Shown here piece by piece: positions 5,629 through 13,456 of a stretch of DNA of 64,000 nucleotides; positions within the stretch are counted from its first letter, which is position 1; every line of letters begins with the position of its first letter. Position numbers and translations under genes: made by a program. Source of the stretch: Caulobacter sp. FWC2 (GTDB taxonomy: Bacteria > Pseudomonadota > Alphaproteobacteria > Caulobacterales > Caulobacteraceae). The stretch covers positions 4,278,001 to 4,342,000 of the forward strand of contig NZ_PEBF01000001.1 in NCBI RefSeq assembly GCF_002742625.1, written 5' to 3'. The notes beneath the pieces are model-generated. The model worked only from the letters and a program-made list of their open reading frames with translations, ran no database searches and had not been told where the DNA came from.

Positions 5629-5774
5629 GTTGACACTCGAAGAAATTCGCGTCAGCTTCGAAACCGTACCGGGGGCGTAAATTCTGATGTGTCGACGGAC
5701 GCACGACGTCCGCGCGCGCGCCTCTTCCCGCATGCCTCTTTGTCTTGTCGCGTAGGCCTTCAACCGGGGCGCAC

Positions 5775-6098
5775 ATGTCGCTGAAGCCGATCGCCGACTA
5801 TGCCGAATACGGCCTGCTGATCTGGCTGGCCGTGATCGCGGGGGTGTTGCTGCTGAAGGGCTTCTCCGGGGGCGACATCCGGGGGCTGATCGTCAATCGC
5901 AAGACCGGCGGCGTCTCGCCCGCGCGCGTGCAGGCCCTGGGCGTCGTGGTCGCCTTCGCCGGCTGGTACGCGACCCTGGGACTGCAGGCGATCTCGGCCC
6001 ACGCCGACAAGCTGCCCGAACTTCCGACCGAGGCGCTCTCGATCCTGGCCGCCAGCCTCGGCGTGCACATCGGCGGCAAGTTCTACGAACGCACCTGA
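5775..6098 (+). CDS. Small membrane protein with S-x2-R-x-Q module, first of a pair
   Basis: The product is 107 residues with hydrophobic segments near residues 12-28, 53-72 and 86-100. Its second half has S48-x2-R51-x-Q53 at the start of a membrane helix, then a Pro-containing linker and LGVHIGGKF at residues 95-103. The next gene has the same arrangement (S85-x2-R88-x-Q90 and GISGGSFIISK), so the two appear to be related partners. I do not recognise a named family. The start is placed at 5775, where the hydrophobic protein begins; an earlier in-frame start at 5745 lacks better support. It heads a four-gene same-strand cluster to 8498. Confidence 0.65.
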   Translation: MSLKPIADYAEYGLLIWLAVIAGVLLLKGFSGGDIRGLIVNRKTGGVSPARVQALGVVVAFAGWYATLGLQAISAHADKLPELPTEALSILAASLGVHIGGKFYERT

Positions 6099-6110
6099 GG
6101 GGGAAGCATC

Positions 6111-6581
6111 ATGATCAACACGCCCTGGGGCCTCTTGGCCTACATCGTCGGCATCGGCGTCGTCGCCATCATCCTGGGCTTCGCGGCCGTGGTCGCCTGG
6201 CGGCTGGCCACCAAGCGCGGCGAGCTGGACGGACTGATCGCCGAGATCCCGTCGGAGACGGCGCTGAAGGCGGCCCTGGTCGCGGCCGTCACCGCCGCCG
6301 GCGGCCAGGCGCCGACCGCCGACGCCGTGGCCGCCGCCGTCCGCCGCGTGCCGGTCAAGGCCAGCCTGTCGCGCTTCCAGTTCCTGATCTTCACCTTCGT
6401 GGTAGCCGGGCTGTTCCTGCTGCTGTCGATCGAGGCCGGGGCCTTCGTCGAGGTGCCGCCGACCGTGCTGGGCCTGATCGGCATCAGCGGCGGCAGCTTC
6501 ATCATCTCCAAGGGCATCTCCAGCAACAGCAGCGGCGGCACGGGCGGCCAGGCCAACCCCGGCGACACGACCCAGACCTGA
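6111..6581 (+). CDS. Membrane protein with S-x2-R-x-Q / GISGG module, second of a pair
   Basis: This 156-residue protein starts 12 bp after the previous gene. An N-terminal membrane helix (about 8-31) is followed by a charged helical region (residues 35-84). Then come S85-x2-R88-x-Q90, a second membrane helix, the linker VEVPPTVL, and GISGGSFIISKG at 124-135. The tail of about 20 residues is rich in Ser, Gly, Asn and Thr. Short phage and bacterial membrane proteins with a similar R-x-Q...GIS-G-(S/T)-(Y/F)...K pattern exist, but their role is not established. A GGAGGAGA site just after its stop leads into the secreted nuclease gene. Confidence 0.65.
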   Translation: MINTPWGLLAYIVGIGVVAIILGFAAVVAWRLATKRGELDGLIAEIPSETALKAALVAAVTAAGGQAPTADAVAAAVRRVPVKASLSRFQFLIFTFVVAGLFLLLSIEAGAFVEVPPTVLGLIGISGGSFIISKGISSNSSGGTGGQANPGDTTQT

Positions 6582-6604: not shown

Positions 6605-7507
6605 ATGATCCGCTCGCTCTTGGGCGCCGCGATCCTGGCGCTGGCGCCCGCCCTCGCCCTGACCCTCACCCTGGCCCCAAGCGCCGCGCGGGCCCAGGCC
6701 ACGCCGCCGGGTACGCCGCAGAAGGGCGCCCGGGCCGATCCGGCCCCTGCGGCCTGCCTGGCCCGCTTCGCCCAGGTCGGCCTGCCCCGGCATCGCGGCG
6801 ACGACGAACTGGCCAAGCAGATCCTGATCTGCCGCGACGGCTACGCCGTGTCGTTCAACAAGGAGACGCGCAATCCCGACTGGGTGATCGAGCGGCTGTC
6901 GCCCGCCGCCCTGACCGGAACCGCCAAGCGCGCCGACAACTTCCGCGCCGATCCAGACGCCAAGGGCTTCAGCCCGACGCCGCAGGACTATACCGACCCG
7001 GCCAATCCCCGCGACCGCGGCCACCAGGCCCCGGCGGCCGACTTCAAGTCCAGCCAGCCCCTGACCGACGACAGCTTCTATATGAGCAACATGTCGCCGC
7101 AGGTGGGAGCCGGCTTCAACCGCGCCCAGTGGCGGTTCCTGGAGGAGGACGTGCGCGCGGCCGTGCTGTGCGGCGGCCACCAGGACGTGATCGTGATCAC
7201 CGGCCCGATCTACGGCTCCAGCGCGCTGTGGATCGGCAAGGGCCCGTACAAGATCCTGTCGCCGGCCGCCTATTTCAAGGTGCTGTACGACACGCAGCGC
7301 GGCCGGGCGATCGGCTTCCGCCTCGACAACAAGGCCTACAAGAAGACGCCGTCCGACAAGTTCATCGTCCCGATCAGCCAGCTCGAGGTCGAGACTGGCC
7401 TGGACTTCCTGACCGCCCTCCCCCGCCGCGACCAGAACATCCTGGAAAGCAGCAAGGGCAGCTTCTGGGGCCATGGGCAGGGCTGCGCGAACGCGGTGAA
7501 GGACTGA
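6605..7507 (+). CDS. Secreted DNA/RNA non-specific endonuclease (NUC1 / beta-beta-alpha-metal)
   Basis: The 300-residue product has a Sec signal peptide of about 30 residues ending SAARA-QA. The catalytic motif DRGH falls at residues 137-140, with His140 as general base, followed by SNMSPQ (161-166), N172 and W-x3-E near 176-180, the usual Mg-binding and active-site elements of Serratia-type nucleases. It should degrade DNA and RNA outside the cytoplasm. GGGAGGAGACCGAC precedes the ATG. It lies between the membrane pair and the unrecognised 314-residue gene on the same strand. No dedicated inhibitor is evident. It could serve nutrition, competition or release of nucleic acids; the sequence does not decide. 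Confidence 0.88.
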   Translation: MIRSLLGAAILALAPALALTLTLAPSAARAQATPPGTPQKGARADPAPAACLARFAQVGLPRHRGDDELAKQILICRDGYAVSFNKETRNPDWVIERLSPAALTGTAKRADNFRADPDAKGFSPTPQDYTDPANPRDRGHQAPAADFKSSQPLTDDSFYMSNMSPQVGAGFNRAQWRFLEEDVRAAVLCGGHQDVIVITGPIYGSSALWIGKGPYKILSPAAYFKVLYDTQRGRAIGFRLDNKAYKKTPSDKFIVPISQLEVETGLDFLTALPRRDQNILESSKGSFWGHGQGCANAVKD

Positions 7508-7553: not shown

Positions 7554-8498
7554 ATGATCCAGTTCGACATCAGCGTCAGCGGCGCGCCCCAGGTGAAGGG
7601 CAGCAAGTGGACCGCCAAGGTCCAGGGCTCGACCGAGCCGGCCTTCCTGGTGGGCCAGACCGTGGCGTTCCAGGACGGCGATGGACAGCATCGCGGCCTC
7701 CATCAGCCCAGCCTGAGCAAGCTGCCCAAGCTCTATTACGATCGTGAGGCGGCGGCGGCCTCGATCGGCCTCTGGGCGCACTTCATGTGGCCAACGGTCA
7801 CCGCGGAGGGCGGCGGGCATCATCTGGTGCTCAACACCTATGACCGGGCCCGCTTCACCTTCGGCTTCTACCAACTGGCGGCGCACACGCCCAAGGACAA
7901 CCTCATCCTGCTGTTCCGGGCTCTACTGAAGCTGCCCAAGGCGGCGGACTATTTCCCCGACCTGCATCTGCTCGACGGCAAGGTCTGGCGGACGGAAAAC
8001 GGGACCTCCTATTCGCTCGAGACCGAGACCCAGGTCCATCGCCCCAACGGCAAGGTCGAGACCCAGCTGGTCGGGTTCATGAGCTATCTCAACCCCGACA
8101 CCACCACGGCGGGCGAGGCCGAGGCCCGCAACGGCGCCAAGCTGATGCACTGGCTGCTGAACGACCCTCTGGCGATCGACGCCTCGGTCAAGGTCGCCTC
8201 AGGCATCATGCGCCGCAAGGTCCAGGCCGCGGCCAGCCGTTACGGCCTGGTCGGCAAGGACCCCCGGCTGGCCATCTGGACGTCCGACATCACCCACCAG
8301 GGCCGGGGCGTGGACAAGATCCCCGCCGCCCTGGCCAAACCCACCCTGGCGGCGCAGCTGACCGCCCTGTCGGTCATCGGCTCCGACACCTATCCGGCGC
8401 GCTGCACGACCGTCGCCGCCAAGATCGCCCAGTTGCACACGGAGGCGGTGTTCGACGGCGTCACCCTCGGCGACGCCCAGCTGCCGCTGAGGGACTAG
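7554..8498 (+). CDS. Unrecognised 314-residue protein, possibly lysozyme-like
   Basis: No signal peptide or membrane helix is visible. The N-terminal 40 residues look beta-rich (FDISVSGAPQVKGSKWTAKV). The centre contains AEGGGHHLVLNTYDRARF and then TFGFYQLAAHTPKDN at about residues 102-116. A glutamate (E85) followed by T-x-G-x-x-Q recalls lysozyme and chitosanase active-site regions, but this is weak inference and I do not assign a function. It starts 46 bp after the nuclease gene and is probably co-transcribed. Base composition and codon use resemble the neighbours. A substrate-binding or effector role alongside the nuclease is conceivable. Confidence 0.6.
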   Translation: MIQFDISVSGAPQVKGSKWTAKVQGSTEPAFLVGQTVAFQDGDGQHRGLHQPSLSKLPKLYYDREAAAASIGLWAHFMWPTVTAEGGGHHLVLNTYDRARFTFGFYQLAAHTPKDNLILLFRALLKLPKAADYFPDLHLLDGKVWRTENGTSYSLETETQVHRPNGKVETQLVGFMSYLNPDTTTAGEAEARNGAKLMHWLLNDPLAIDASVKVASGIMRRKVQAAASRYGLVGKDPRLAIWTSDITHQGRGVDKIPAALAKPTLAAQLTALSVIGSDTYPARCTTVAAKIAQLHTEAVFDGVTLGDAQLPLRD

Positions 8499-8624
8499 GG
8501 AGGGACGAGGCTTGCGGCCTGGGGTGCTGACTTGGTTGCGCGAGGAGCCGACGTTGAGCTCACTCCAAAAACCTGAAGTTCGCCCGTGCGGCGGCGCTAA
8601 TTGGCGTGGGCGCCGTCTGAACGG

Positions 8625-8906
8625 CTAAGAACGAACATCGCTGGACGACGACTGTGACGGCTGCGGGCCGCGCCACAGGTTGCGCCCGCCGATGAAGATG
8701 AGGACGCCGACCACGATCGGTATCCCCGCGACGACCGCCGCAATGACCAGCAGGCCGCCGGCGGAGCTCGGGTCGCTCTTGCCGGTCATGACCACGAAGC
8801 CGGCGGTGCATAGGCCGCACAAGCCAACGATCAGCCCGCCTACAGCCATCAACAGCGCCCCGAACAGTTTGGCGACCGGGCGTCCGCCGCCGCTCTCGTC
8901 CGTCAT
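8625..8906 (-). CDS. Small two-helix membrane protein
   Basis: The 93-residue product has two hydrophobic helices (about residues 14-40 and 50-72) joined by a short polar loop, and a Ser/Gln-rich C-terminal tail. Its ATG overlaps the stop codon of the radical SAM gene in an ATGA arrangement, so it is probably translationally coupled to it. I do not recognise a family. The start at 8906 fits the overlap and gives a polar N-terminus before the first helix. It may anchor or assist the upstream lipid-related enzymes. Confidence 0.65.
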   Translation of the reverse strand: MTDESGGGRPVAKLFGALLMAVGGLIVGLCGLCTAGFVVMTGKSDPSSAGGLLVIAAVVAGIPIVVGVLIFIGGRNLWRGPQPSQSSSSDVRS

Positions 8907-10348
8907 TCGGCCAGCTCCCCGCGACCGCGCCGCAGCGCTCCGTTCCCGGGCGCGCCGGGTCGATAGAAGGTGTTGTAGGTGTCGAACGGAATGATCCGCC
9001 CGTCCGGCTCGACGAAGTGGACGCACGAGCGCTTCACCGTGCCGAGGTCGAAATTGTAGCGGTCCAGGAACTGCGAGATCACCACGCGGAACGTGTTTTC
9101 GTATGATAGGTCCTTGGGAACCGCCGCCTCAGGCAGGCAGCAAAGCAGGCTGGCCAGCTTCTCGGAGGTGTCCACCTGCGCCGTCGACAGCGACATCAGC
9201 TCGAACATCCCTCGCCGCAGCTCCGGATAGGCCTCGAAGGTCACGGTATTGGGCACTGCTGCGACGAACAGCTCTCGTGGCAGCATGGCCGTGACAGGCA
9301 TGACCTCGGCGCCGTTGCGCAGGCCGTAGCCGATACAGATCTGGTCTGGATTGCAGGGTAGCGGGATCAGGTCCTCCAGCGCAAAAACCCCCGCCTCAGC
9401 GATCCTCCGCCGGATCTGGGTCAGAACGATGCGGTCGCGTCGGGGCTCGAAGCCGTCGTTGCGGCCGGCGTCCTGGATCGGCTGGAAGGTGACGCCGCGA
9501 ACGCAACGCCACGCCAAGGCGTGGCGCACGATGTCGGGGATCTCCTCATCATTGAGACCCTTCTTCAGGGTCACGACCAAGGTGGTGGAGATGTTGTTGC
9601 GTTCCAGCGCCTCCAGCGCCTCCTGGCGCACCCGAGTCAGGTCGGCGCCGCGCAAGGCCATCAGCGGCTCGCGCTTTAGACTGTCGAACTGCAGATAGAC
9701 CTCGAAACGAGGCATGAACTTCGCCAGGCGCTCGGCGAAGCCTGGCTCGCGAGCGATGCGCAGGCCATTGGTGTTGATCATCAGGTGGCGGATCGGTCGC
9801 CGCCGCGCCGCCTCCAGAATCTCGAAGAACTGAGGGTGCAGAGTCGGCTCGCCGCCCGAGATCTGTACGAGGTCCGGCTCGCCCTCGGACTCTACCAGGA
9901 TGTCCAGCATCCGCTCGATCTCAGCCAACGGGCGGTGGGCCTCGCGCTTGACCGAGGAGTCGGCGAAGCAAACCGGGCACGATAGATTGCAGGCCTCGTT
10001 CACCTCGATGATCGCCAAGCACGAGTGCTGCTCGTGATCGGGACATAGGCCGCAGTCGTAGGGACAGCCATGGTCGGTGCGGGTCTGCGCGTTCAGCGGC
10101 CGATCGCCAGGCTTCAGCCAGTCCTGCTGCGATTTCCAGTACGACAGGTCGTCGGCGATCAGGGTCTTCTGCACGCCGTGCTCGCGACAGCGCTTGAGGA
10201 GGAAGACCTCGTTATCCTCGGCGATGATCTTGGCCGGGACCAGGGCCAGGCAGTCTTCACACAGACTGGTGGTCTGGCCCAGAAACAGATACGGCGCCGA
10301 CTTGCGCACGCTCGCGACGCCGCTCGCGCTGGTCGTAGATCCATCCAT
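8903..10348 (-). CDS. Radical SAM protein resembling tetraether / membrane-spanning lipid synthases (Tes/MJ0619-like)
   Basis: This 481-residue enzyme has three cysteine regions in order. The first is C30-x2-C33 with C54-x2-H57. The second is C95-x3-C99-x2-C102 in GCPYDCGLCPDH. The third is the radical SAM cluster C120-x3-C124-x2-C127 in ACNLSCPVCFAD, followed by QISGGEPTLHPQF and INTNG. This order matches the archaeal Tes (MJ0619) family, which joins lipid chains by radical carbon-carbon coupling; bacterial relatives have been proposed to make membrane-spanning lipids. The neighbouring Lgt-like gene also points to lipid chemistry. The start at 10348 lies 92 bases inside the end of the Lgt-like gene; later GTG codons are possible starts. 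Confidence 0.75.
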   Translation of the reverse strand: MDGSTTSASGVASVRKSAPYLFLGQTTSLCEDCLALVPAKIIAEDNEVFLLKRCREHGVQKTLIADDLSYWKSQQDWLKPGDRPLNAQTRTDHGCPYDCGLCPDHEQHSCLAIIEVNEACNLSCPVCFADSSVKREAHRPLAEIERMLDILVESEGEPDLVQISGGEPTLHPQFFEILEAARRRPIRHLMINTNGLRIAREPGFAERLAKFMPRFEVYLQFDSLKREPLMALRGADLTRVRQEALEALERNNISTTLVVTLKKGLNDEEIPDIVRHALAWRCVRGVTFQPIQDAGRNDGFEPRRDRIVLTQIRRRIAEAGVFALEDLIPLPCNPDQICIGYGLRNGAEVMPVTAMLPRELFVAAVPNTVTFEAYPELRRGMFELMSLSTAQVDTSEKLASLLCCLPEAAVPKDLSYENTFRVVISQFLDRYNFDLGTVKRSCVHFVEPDGRIIPFDTYNTFYRPGAPGNGALRRGRGELAE

Positions 10349-11024
10349 AAGCCAGCAACCCTAAGCACAACAGATGGAAGAGATTAAACGGCCCGATCAA
10401 CTTGGGATAGGGCTTGAGGAACTCCCAGACGAACCTTTGCGCGCCGTAGGCCATGCACAGCGCGTAGAACCCGCGCCGCATCGCCCAGTCGGCGCGCACG
10501 GCCAGACCGCTGAGATAGGCGGCCAGAAAAAGCGCCATCGACAAGCTCTCGTACAGCTGCACGGGATGGCGCGAGACCTGGTCGCCTAGGTCCACGCCCC
10601 AGGGCAGACGCGTCGGCGAGCCATAGGTGCCGTCTGCGATCCCGGCGAAGAAGCAGCCCAGCCGCCCGACAACGACGCCTAGGGCGAAGGGGCCGGTGAA
10701 GACCCCGCCCGTCGAGCGTTTCACCCCTTTCACCGCCTTATAGATCTCCACCGCGACGATGGCGCCGACCAGCGCTCCGACGACGCTGTGCGACAGGGAC
10801 GGATTGGGGCCTCGCAGGCTGTTCAGCGAACCCGCCATCCAGGCGCCCGGCAAGGCGCCCATTGCCAGGGCGACAAAGTAGCCGCCGCCCACACGGCCGG
10901 CCACGCTCTCGGCCAACGCCTTCAGGCGCCAGCGATACAGAACCACGCTCAGCGCCAACCCGCTCAGCCATCCGCTGAGATCGAACGCGACATGGGCGAA
11001 GGGCGAGGTCGAGACCGAAATCAT
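10257..11024 (-). CDS. Prolipoprotein diacylglyceryl transferase (Lgt)-like membrane protein
   Basis: The product is 255 residues and polytopic. It keeps the Lgt core in altered form: GVVVGRLGCFFAGI, then DGTYGSPT, LPWGVD, and RHPVQLYES near the middle. Canonical Lgt has G-R-x-G-N-F-x-N-G; here the asparagines are replaced (GRLGCFFAGI), and the HGG motif of Lgt is not obvious. Lgt transfers diacylglyceryl from phosphatidylglycerol to lipoproteins, so this divergent member may handle a different glycerolipid reaction. A true housekeeping lgt is expected elsewhere. The start at 11024 fits the family; an upstream in-frame GTG at 11069 is possible. It overlaps the radical SAM gene by 92 bp. Confidence 0.72.
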   Translation of the reverse strand: MISVSTSPFAHVAFDLSGWLSGLALSVVLYRWRLKALAESVAGRVGGGYFVALAMGALPGAWMAGSLNSLRGPNPSLSHSVVGALVGAIVAVEIYKAVKGVKRSTGGVFTGPFALGVVVGRLGCFFAGIADGTYGSPTRLPWGVDLGDQVSRHPVQLYESLSMALFLAAYLSGLAVRADWAMRRGFYALCMAYGAQRFVWEFLKPYPKLIGPFNLFHLLCLGLLAYGWIYDQRERRRERAQVGAVSVSGPDHQSV

Positions 11025-11197
11025 GCAGCGACATGGCCACGTCCGATGCTCTTTCGCAATTTGGAGCACGAGCGCTGGCTACAAATAGGTCCGGAGCCAT
11101 TCCGCGACGAGTCACGAGCCCCCTCCCGCCACTCTGCTGCCACTCCCCGTCAGCAGGCCCTCTAGCCGTGAGCCTCGCGGGTCCCTAACTTGGGGCC

Positions 11198-13456
<2,259 letters not shown>

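Follow-up and report, generated by a model that had tools for sequence, protein, structure and literature searches.

An Lgt-like protein and a Tes-clan radical SAM protein encoded as a conserved bacterial gene pair, with cysteine-bearing small membrane proteins as candidate clients

What function might unite an Lgt-like membrane protein, a radical S-adenosylmethionine (SAM) protein and a small membrane protein in one operon? The question is raised by a locus of Caulobacter sp. FWC2, where three overlapping genes for these proteins are read on the minus strand, from 11024 to 8625, in a 64,000-nucleotide stretch of DNA (contig NZ_PEBF01000001.1, positions 4,278,001 to 4,342,000; the whole stretch is referred to here as the window). 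A preliminary description, made from the sequence alone, had presented them as a possible membrane-spanning lipid synthase operon, and its coordinates are borne out: the Lgt-like and radical SAM genes overlap by 92 bp, and the radical SAM and small membrane protein genes by 4 bp. In our analysis the first two genes form a conserved pair in bacteria of six phyla, and small membrane proteins with a cysteine in a predicted helix are enriched beside the pair. We tentatively propose that the locus encodes a system dedicated to modifying small membrane proteins, probably by lipidation at the cysteine, and that the lipid chain is the substrate of the radical SAM enzyme; to this reading we give somewhat less than an even chance.

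Conservation of the gene pair

That the Lgt-like and radical SAM genes form a conserved pair is near certain. The 80 named loci come from genome contigs and were the top-scoring ones among 570 confirmed candidates, which biases them to close relatives. An Lgt-like gene lies on the same strand in 76 of the 80 (within about 350 bp in 70, at 1.1-3.2 kb in six), and in the remaining four a contig end lies no more than about 330 bases from the start of the radical SAM gene. The pairing spans Pseudomonadota (including Caulobacteraceae, Sphingomonas, Novosphingobium, Bradyrhizobium, Reyranella, Dechloromonas and Methylococcus), Bacillota (Paenibacillus, Aeribacillus), Bacteroidota (Aquimarina, Tenacibaculum), Cyanobacteriota/Melainabacteria (cyanobacteria and melainabacteria), Planctomycetota (planctomycetes) and Acidobacteriota (an acidobacterium). 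The preliminary description had considered such an Lgt-like partner under-described, and our search of the open-access literature, with subscription journals mostly outside it, indeed found no paper on the pair or its small proteins; with six phyla involved, the pairing is not peculiar to an aerobic alphaproteobacterium.

In genome samples the radical SAM gene was counted at E <= 1e-20 to the window protein (E <= 1e-60 in Bacteroidota). It is present in 6 of 385 alphaproteobacterial genomes, with an Lgt-like gene nearby in all six, and in 12 of 398 genomes of Pseudomonadota, again with an Lgt-like gene nearby in every one. Within the genus Caulobacter its occurrence is patchy (G000, G007 and G014 among 37 members). 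Some member of the clan occurs in 115 of 199 genomes of Acidobacteriota, and all 12 window-type genes there (at least 51% identity) have an Lgt-like gene, one of them 2.5 kb off. Among 173 Bacteroidota genomes, the 15 with the radical SAM gene all have an Lgt-like gene, within 1.3 kb in 14 and on another contig in one; conversely, 16 of the 17 genomes with an Lgt-like gene also have a radical SAM gene, that of G1303 being under the search cut-off.

In the reverse direction, an Lgt-like match at E <= 1e-9 was obtained in eight of the 385 alphaproteobacterial genomes: four are intact and paired, three are ordinary Lgt and one is a lone broken copy (G385). Two further genomes of this set, G260 and G430, have the radical SAM gene together with a divergent Lgt-like gene that the E <= 1e-9 search missed. 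The distances of the Lgt-like and radical SAM proteins correlate over 76 loci (r 0.95), in part perhaps through shared species history. The pairing counts rule out a chance or taxon-limited operon, and the possibility, foreseen in the preliminary description, that the two genes lack a conserved pairing is refuted. At L207:472-1069 a broken Lgt-like copy stands alone in an alphaproteobacterial genome without a match in the radical SAM search. No relative of the Lgt-like protein was found in viral contigs.

Small membrane proteins and their cysteine

The family of the window's small protein has one invariant cysteine, C33 (Table 1). The cysteine close to it, C30, is not conserved in the family, and no meaningful further copy of the protein is found in its own genome (next best E 0.2). 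For comparison across loci we used a motif rule, namely an open reading frame (ORF) of 45-200 residues with a predicted helix and a cysteine between helix residue 9 and five residues past the helix, with a small residue no more than three positions ahead of the cysteine and, ahead of that, ten residues without charged or strongly polar ones. The rule was drawn up after example neighbourhoods had been viewed, most of which contain small membrane ORFs with a helix cysteine, short ORFs were called mechanically, and the Fisher tests are uncorrected for relatedness. Within 1.2 kb of the pair the motif is found in 84 of 102 helix-bearing ORFs (82 if overlapping ORFs are counted once); the corresponding figures are 3 of 38 for distant same-strand flanks and 6 of 34 for the opposite strand. 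Any cysteine in or just after a helix is present in 94/102, 19/38 and 18/34 of these ORFs, respectively. By locus, 61 of 80 have at least one motif ORF, as do 50 of the 63 with both flanks, and 16 of 80 have more than one that do not overlap, up to four. Among 26 loci outside rule-setting, several of them related to rule-setting loci, 18 of 21 ORFs and 14 of the loci have the motif; around unpaired relatives the figures are 3 of 14 for ORFs and 3 of 38 for loci. The 26 loci exclude L142, L139 (which resembles L138) and L116-L130, the second copies of named loci. We are fairly confident that a cysteine-bearing third component is conserved in the system, and the small membrane protein, with its invariant cysteine, is probably a client rather than an accessory.

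The position of the cysteine was considered by a positive-inside count, in which the cysteine helix runs from inside to outside in 61 of 84 cases and in reverse in nine, with 14 undecided. The outer side, which is thus predicted for the cysteine, is the side where Lgt acts. The candidate clients are of several architectures. The cysteine is in the first of two helices in alphaproteobacteria, in the second of two in Flavobacteriaceae, in the last helix near the C-terminus in Paenibacillus, and in a C-terminal helix after a zinc-ribbon-like stretch in L096 and L110. Cysteine-rich stretches of zinc-ribbon or B-box type precede the helices of candidate clients at L096:4823-5080, L110:4731-5054 (below the Pfam cut-off) and L101:8202-9743. 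Directly beside one solitary Lgt-like gene of Bacteroidota (L248:5653-6498, in genome G1224) no convincing motif-bearing small ORF could be seen.

These proteins could also be something other than clients. If the two enzymes make an unusual free lipid that does not span the membrane, the small proteins may be structural or sensory subunits with a metal-binding or redox-active cysteine. Both enzyme families are linked to lipids and the small protein sequences diverge strongly between phyla, and methyltransferases of ICMT/PEMT type adjoin the divergent paired loci L024 and L161. A single cysteine per helix, in its outer half and with no second conserved metal ligand, would be an unusual metal site, and we consider this explanation quite improbable. 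The extra membrane genes at these two loci (L024:8938-9912 and L161:2467-3511) comprise an ICMT/PEMT-type gene in both, a DUF4395 gene in L161, and small helix ORFs with cysteines. The ICMT family is named for its action on a lipidated cysteine, and its presence at both loci also speaks for the lipidation reading.

The two enzymes and their known relatives

The radical SAM protein has the order of cysteines and histidine given in the preliminary description (C30-x2-C33, C54-x2-H57, C95-x3-C99-x2-C102, C120-x3-C124-x2-C127). The rubredoxin site of GDGT-MAS, also called MJ0619, is C9X2C12X20C33X2H36 in the accessible text of its report (PMC9433317), and this enzyme is the closest solved chain by sequence (E = 4.4e-65), with identity at 103 of 305 residues (34%) over the first aligned stretch. 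Judged from sequence, the resemblance is beyond chance, and the predicted AlphaFold model has the overall GDGT-MAS fold. The protein matches Pfam PF23545 (65.1 bits, cut-off 27) and PF04055 (81.6, cut-off 29.5). It is a Tes-clan protein, as had been suggested, sharing with Tes the fold, the rubredoxin site, the N-terminal auxiliary motif, the radical SAM motif and, probably, a hydrophobic chain as substrate. A best match without a lipid link, which would have spoken against the preliminary description, is not what solved structures give, as the best of them is a lipid enzyme; the best NCBIfam model, TrsS, has no stated lipid role.

The same fold comparison bears on the possibility that the small protein is itself the substrate of the radical SAM enzyme, which would introduce a thioether, a crosslink or another peptide change at or near the cysteine, with the Lgt-like protein as a scaffold or reacting through its invariant Cys124. 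The predicted model matches Tes at 44.5, far above any peptide maturase listed (19.3 at best). Radical SAM enzymes act in the cytoplasm, in contrast to the outside location predicted for the cysteine. We regard such a peptide modification as unlikely.

Membership in Tes or TrsS proper is ruled out by curated cut-offs, by the tree and by C-terminal residues. The window protein scores 274.9 bits on NCBIfam Tes (NF045702), under the equivalog cut-off of 450, and 304.3 bits on TrsS (NF045646), under 490, while six acidobacterial relatives score 550-619 bits on the Tes model and 13 relatives 511-703 on the TrsS model. We made a quick tree of 86 proteins and a careful tree of 45 of the same rows. 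The Tes-scoring and TrsS-scoring proteins share one side of a branch (support 99 and 100/99 in the quick and careful trees, respectively), and all 20 sampled core rows of the window family lie on the opposite side (100/99), together with some unpaired sister groups. We are unsure of a single clade for all Lgt-paired proteins, because the label needs two changes on the trees, through L182 and L016/L017, which are long or weakly placed. At the C-terminus, the positions of Tes C455 and C468 are cysteine in none of 46 core members and in 6/6 Tes-scoring acidobacterial proteins. The C468 position has D in 33, E in 12 and S in one of the 46; the window protein has S, D, S and F at the positions of C455, C468, Met439 and Tyr459. 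Met439 and Tyr459 are conserved in archaeal Tes, and Met is found at 439 in 19 of the 46 core members, one being unparsed. The AlphaFold model has a predicted local distance difference test (pLDDT) score below 50 at residues 386-410, a stretch that includes C403-C404, and does not settle the C-terminal cluster.

These results bear on the function first proposed for the locus, in which the radical SAM enzyme would couple lipid tails as Tes and Mss do, the Lgt-like protein would present the glycerolipid and the small protein would be an anchor. The Tes-like fold and motifs fit this proposal. The window family falls under the curated Tes cut-off and outside the Tes-scoring clade, however, and is without both C-terminal cysteines. 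Nor was an Lgt-like gene found near any of the six Tes-scoring acidobacterial proteins, the 13 TrsS-scoring proteins or four relatives of about 700 residues in the stretches examined (mostly 1-2 kb, sometimes about 5 kb, per side), and the conserved cysteine of the small proteins would be left unexplained. A further point against it is that Caulobacter, Bradyrhizobium, Paenibacillus and Tenacibaculum are not known to us to make membrane-spanning lipids. A membrane-spanning lipid synthase is not supported, and we give it only a small chance.

Compared with known systems, the window family differs from Tes as a clade of its own with sub-cut-off scores, altered C-terminal cysteines, a near-constant Lgt-like neighbour and small cysteine proteins. 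Mss is another Tes-like enzyme, described as acting on bacterial lipids (PMC13274423). TrsS is similar in being the top NCBIfam model and in length, but the TrsS-scoring loci L203 and L204 have a class I methyltransferase gene and neither an Lgt-like gene nor a short helix-cysteine ORF. A gene neighbourhood in common with TrsS is ruled out for these two loci; at the other TrsS-scoring loci about 1.5 kb or less was examined per side. TrsS can be a selenoprotein, and a possible internal TGA in L182 was rejected, since the frame has only a terminal TGA and no internal stop.

Bacterial homologues of Tes, Proteobacteria included, are already in the literature, according to the available text of PMC8941075. 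With an identity rule of 30%, such homologues in environmental genomes are being taken to point to the sources of branched tetraether lipids (PMC11868695, accessible part). The window family probably passes this rule (34% to MJ0619). Because the family is a separate clade with a different gene neighbourhood, some of these source assignments may be wrong.

On the window family's side of the tree, a sister group has tandem radical SAM genes beside acyl-carrier protein and ketoreductase genes (L202:7008-9817) or beside ketoreductase and class III aminotransferase genes (L167:5179-8302), with no Lgt-like gene found at either. These neighbourhoods suggest chain-like substrates on this side of the tree too, and the tandem genes are possibly part of an undescribed chain-modifying cluster. 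In Acidobacteriota, the Tes-like-domain proteins encoded at L176, L177, L178 and L179 are about 630-860 residues long and share 26-31% identity with the window protein. Proteins of this type occur in many sampled Acidobacteriota genomes and may be candidates for the iso-diabolic acid step.

The Lgt-like protein is of Lgt ancestry, matching Pfam PF01790 at 63 bits (gathering cut-off 24.9). On the NCBIfam Lgt equivalogs it is under cut-off (best 33.5 against 428 bits; TIGR00544 24.5 against 118.9). The genome also has a canonical full-length Lgt at another place (G000:C1:4591332-4592147, 243 bits), which indicates that the Lgt-like gene is a paralogue and not the housekeeping enzyme. Residue positions were transferred from 5AZB by way of the Lgt of this genome, which was aligned to it, and counts were made over 79 family members, leaving out ORFs of at least 300 residues, with four canonical Lgt for comparison. 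Arg143, Arg239 and His103 of Lgt are essential according to the accessible text of PMC4728403. The family has the LGT domain, the equivalents of Arg143 and Arg239, a RHPxQxYE stretch and, in 79/79 proteins, a neighbouring tyrosine. It differs from Lgt in having V, E, M or A in place of His103 of the HGGL motif (72/79; His in 4/4 canonical Lgt), an invariant Cys in place of Asn146, and the new near-invariant residues Lys96 (78/79) and Glu93 (75/79), and in that the candidate client cysteine is within a helix and not behind a cleaved signal peptide. The changed catalytic motifs noticed in the preliminary description are real. Because the arginines are kept and His103 is lost, a lipid-binding site seems plausible and the known catalytic route does not.

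Proposed function and features of the locus

The modification system that we prefer could work as follows. The clients would be the small proteins, of one to three helices, whose genes adjoin those of the two enzymes, each with the cysteine in the outer half of a helix that runs from inside to outside. This is where a lipobox cysteine sits in the membrane, yet the client cysteine would lie inside the helix, and no cleaved signal peptide is apparent. The Lgt-like protein would bind a phosphatidylglycerol-like lipid and couple a lipid moiety to this internal cysteine without signal peptide cleavage. The radical SAM enzyme would take hydrogen from a saturated hydrocarbon chain and alter the lipid before or after attachment, for example by forming a C-C bond, a C-S bond or a branch. 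In its most far-reaching form, in which an internal cysteine of small helix proteins would receive a lipid that an Lgt paralogue and a Tes-clan enzyme together attach and remodel, so that the transmembrane helix carries a covalent radical-modified, possibly bilayer-spanning lipid in at least six phyla, the proposal is rather unlikely, although conceivable.

Several points weigh against the modification system. Lipidation has no obvious need of a radical SAM enzyme. The loss of the catalytic His103, which Lgt needs, from the Lgt-like family casts doubt on diacylglyceryl transfer by the known route. In Pfam and NCBIfam scans of ten small proteins none reached a curated cut-off, and by this measure the client types show no homology. 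No motif ORF was found in 19 of the 80 loci (13 of the 63 with both flanks) or in 12 of the 26 test loci; some of these were probably missed through the helix threshold or short flanks, and others may have no client. The setting of the cysteine is no more than lipobox-like, and its small-residue element was part of the rule itself; the tally of motif composition leaves out 13 Bradyrhizobium loci. Bacterial ICMT-family proteins are varied and match PEMT as well. Finally, G1224 of Bacteroidota has its Lgt-like gene with no radical SAM gene nearby.

Known kinds of enzyme are combined here into an apparently undescribed system. If the small proteins are clients, protein lipidation would gain a new form, or cysteine would undergo some other modification, and the candidate system occurs in easily grown organisms, namely Caulobacter, Bradyrhizobium and Paenibacillus relatives. 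The features of the window locus are collected in Table 1.

Table 1. Genes and residues of the window locus (window coordinates; aa, amino acids)
Feature	Position	Strand	Remarks
Lgt-like integral membrane protein, gene 1, 255 aa	10257..11024	-	Pfam LGT 63 bits; NCBIfam Lgt equivalogs far under cut-off
GRLGC stretch, R121 (Lgt Arg143) to C124 (Asn146)	10653..10664	-	R 77/79, C 79/79; N in 4/4 canonical Lgt
R197 codon (Lgt Arg239)	10434..10436	-	Kept 79/79
Tes-clan radical SAM protein, gene 2, 481 aa	8903..10348	-	
Rubredoxin-type site C30-x2-C33-x20-C54-x2-H57	10178..10261	-	Spacing equals GDGT-MAS C9X2C12X20C33X2H36
N-terminal auxiliary cluster motif C95-x3-C99-x2-C102	10043..10066	-	Aligns with MJ0619 C73, C77, C80
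Radical SAM CX3CX2C motif, C120, C124, C127	9968..9991	-	Invariant in alignment sets A1 and A2
C332 in family-specific P[LV]PC	9353..9355	-	46/46 core members; 0/6 Tes-scoring; 0/13 TrsS-scoring
C403-C404 in family-specific [LM]CCLP	9137..9142	-	45/46 core members; 0/6 Tes-scoring; 0/13 TrsS-scoring; model pLDDT <50
C-terminal region, C442 kept, D456 at Tes Cys468 position	8981..9025	-	From alignment
Two-helix small membrane protein, gene 3, 93 aa, candidate client	8625..8906	-	Predicted helices 14-32, 52-70; family of 21 including itself
C33 codon of small protein, candidate modified cysteine (GLC-T/S)	8808..8810	-	Cys in 21/21 family members

No match to a sigma-70-type promoter was found in 8400-11250. 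Of the neighbouring genes, 7554-8498 encodes a 314-residue protein without a Pfam or NCBIfam match, and 5745-6581 on the plus strand holds two neighbouring small membrane proteins with no Pfam match over cut-off. The 314-residue protein gene adjoins a plus-strand gene (6605-7507) whose product has a hydrophobic N-terminus and is a DNA/RNA non-specific endonuclease (PF01223, 138 bits).

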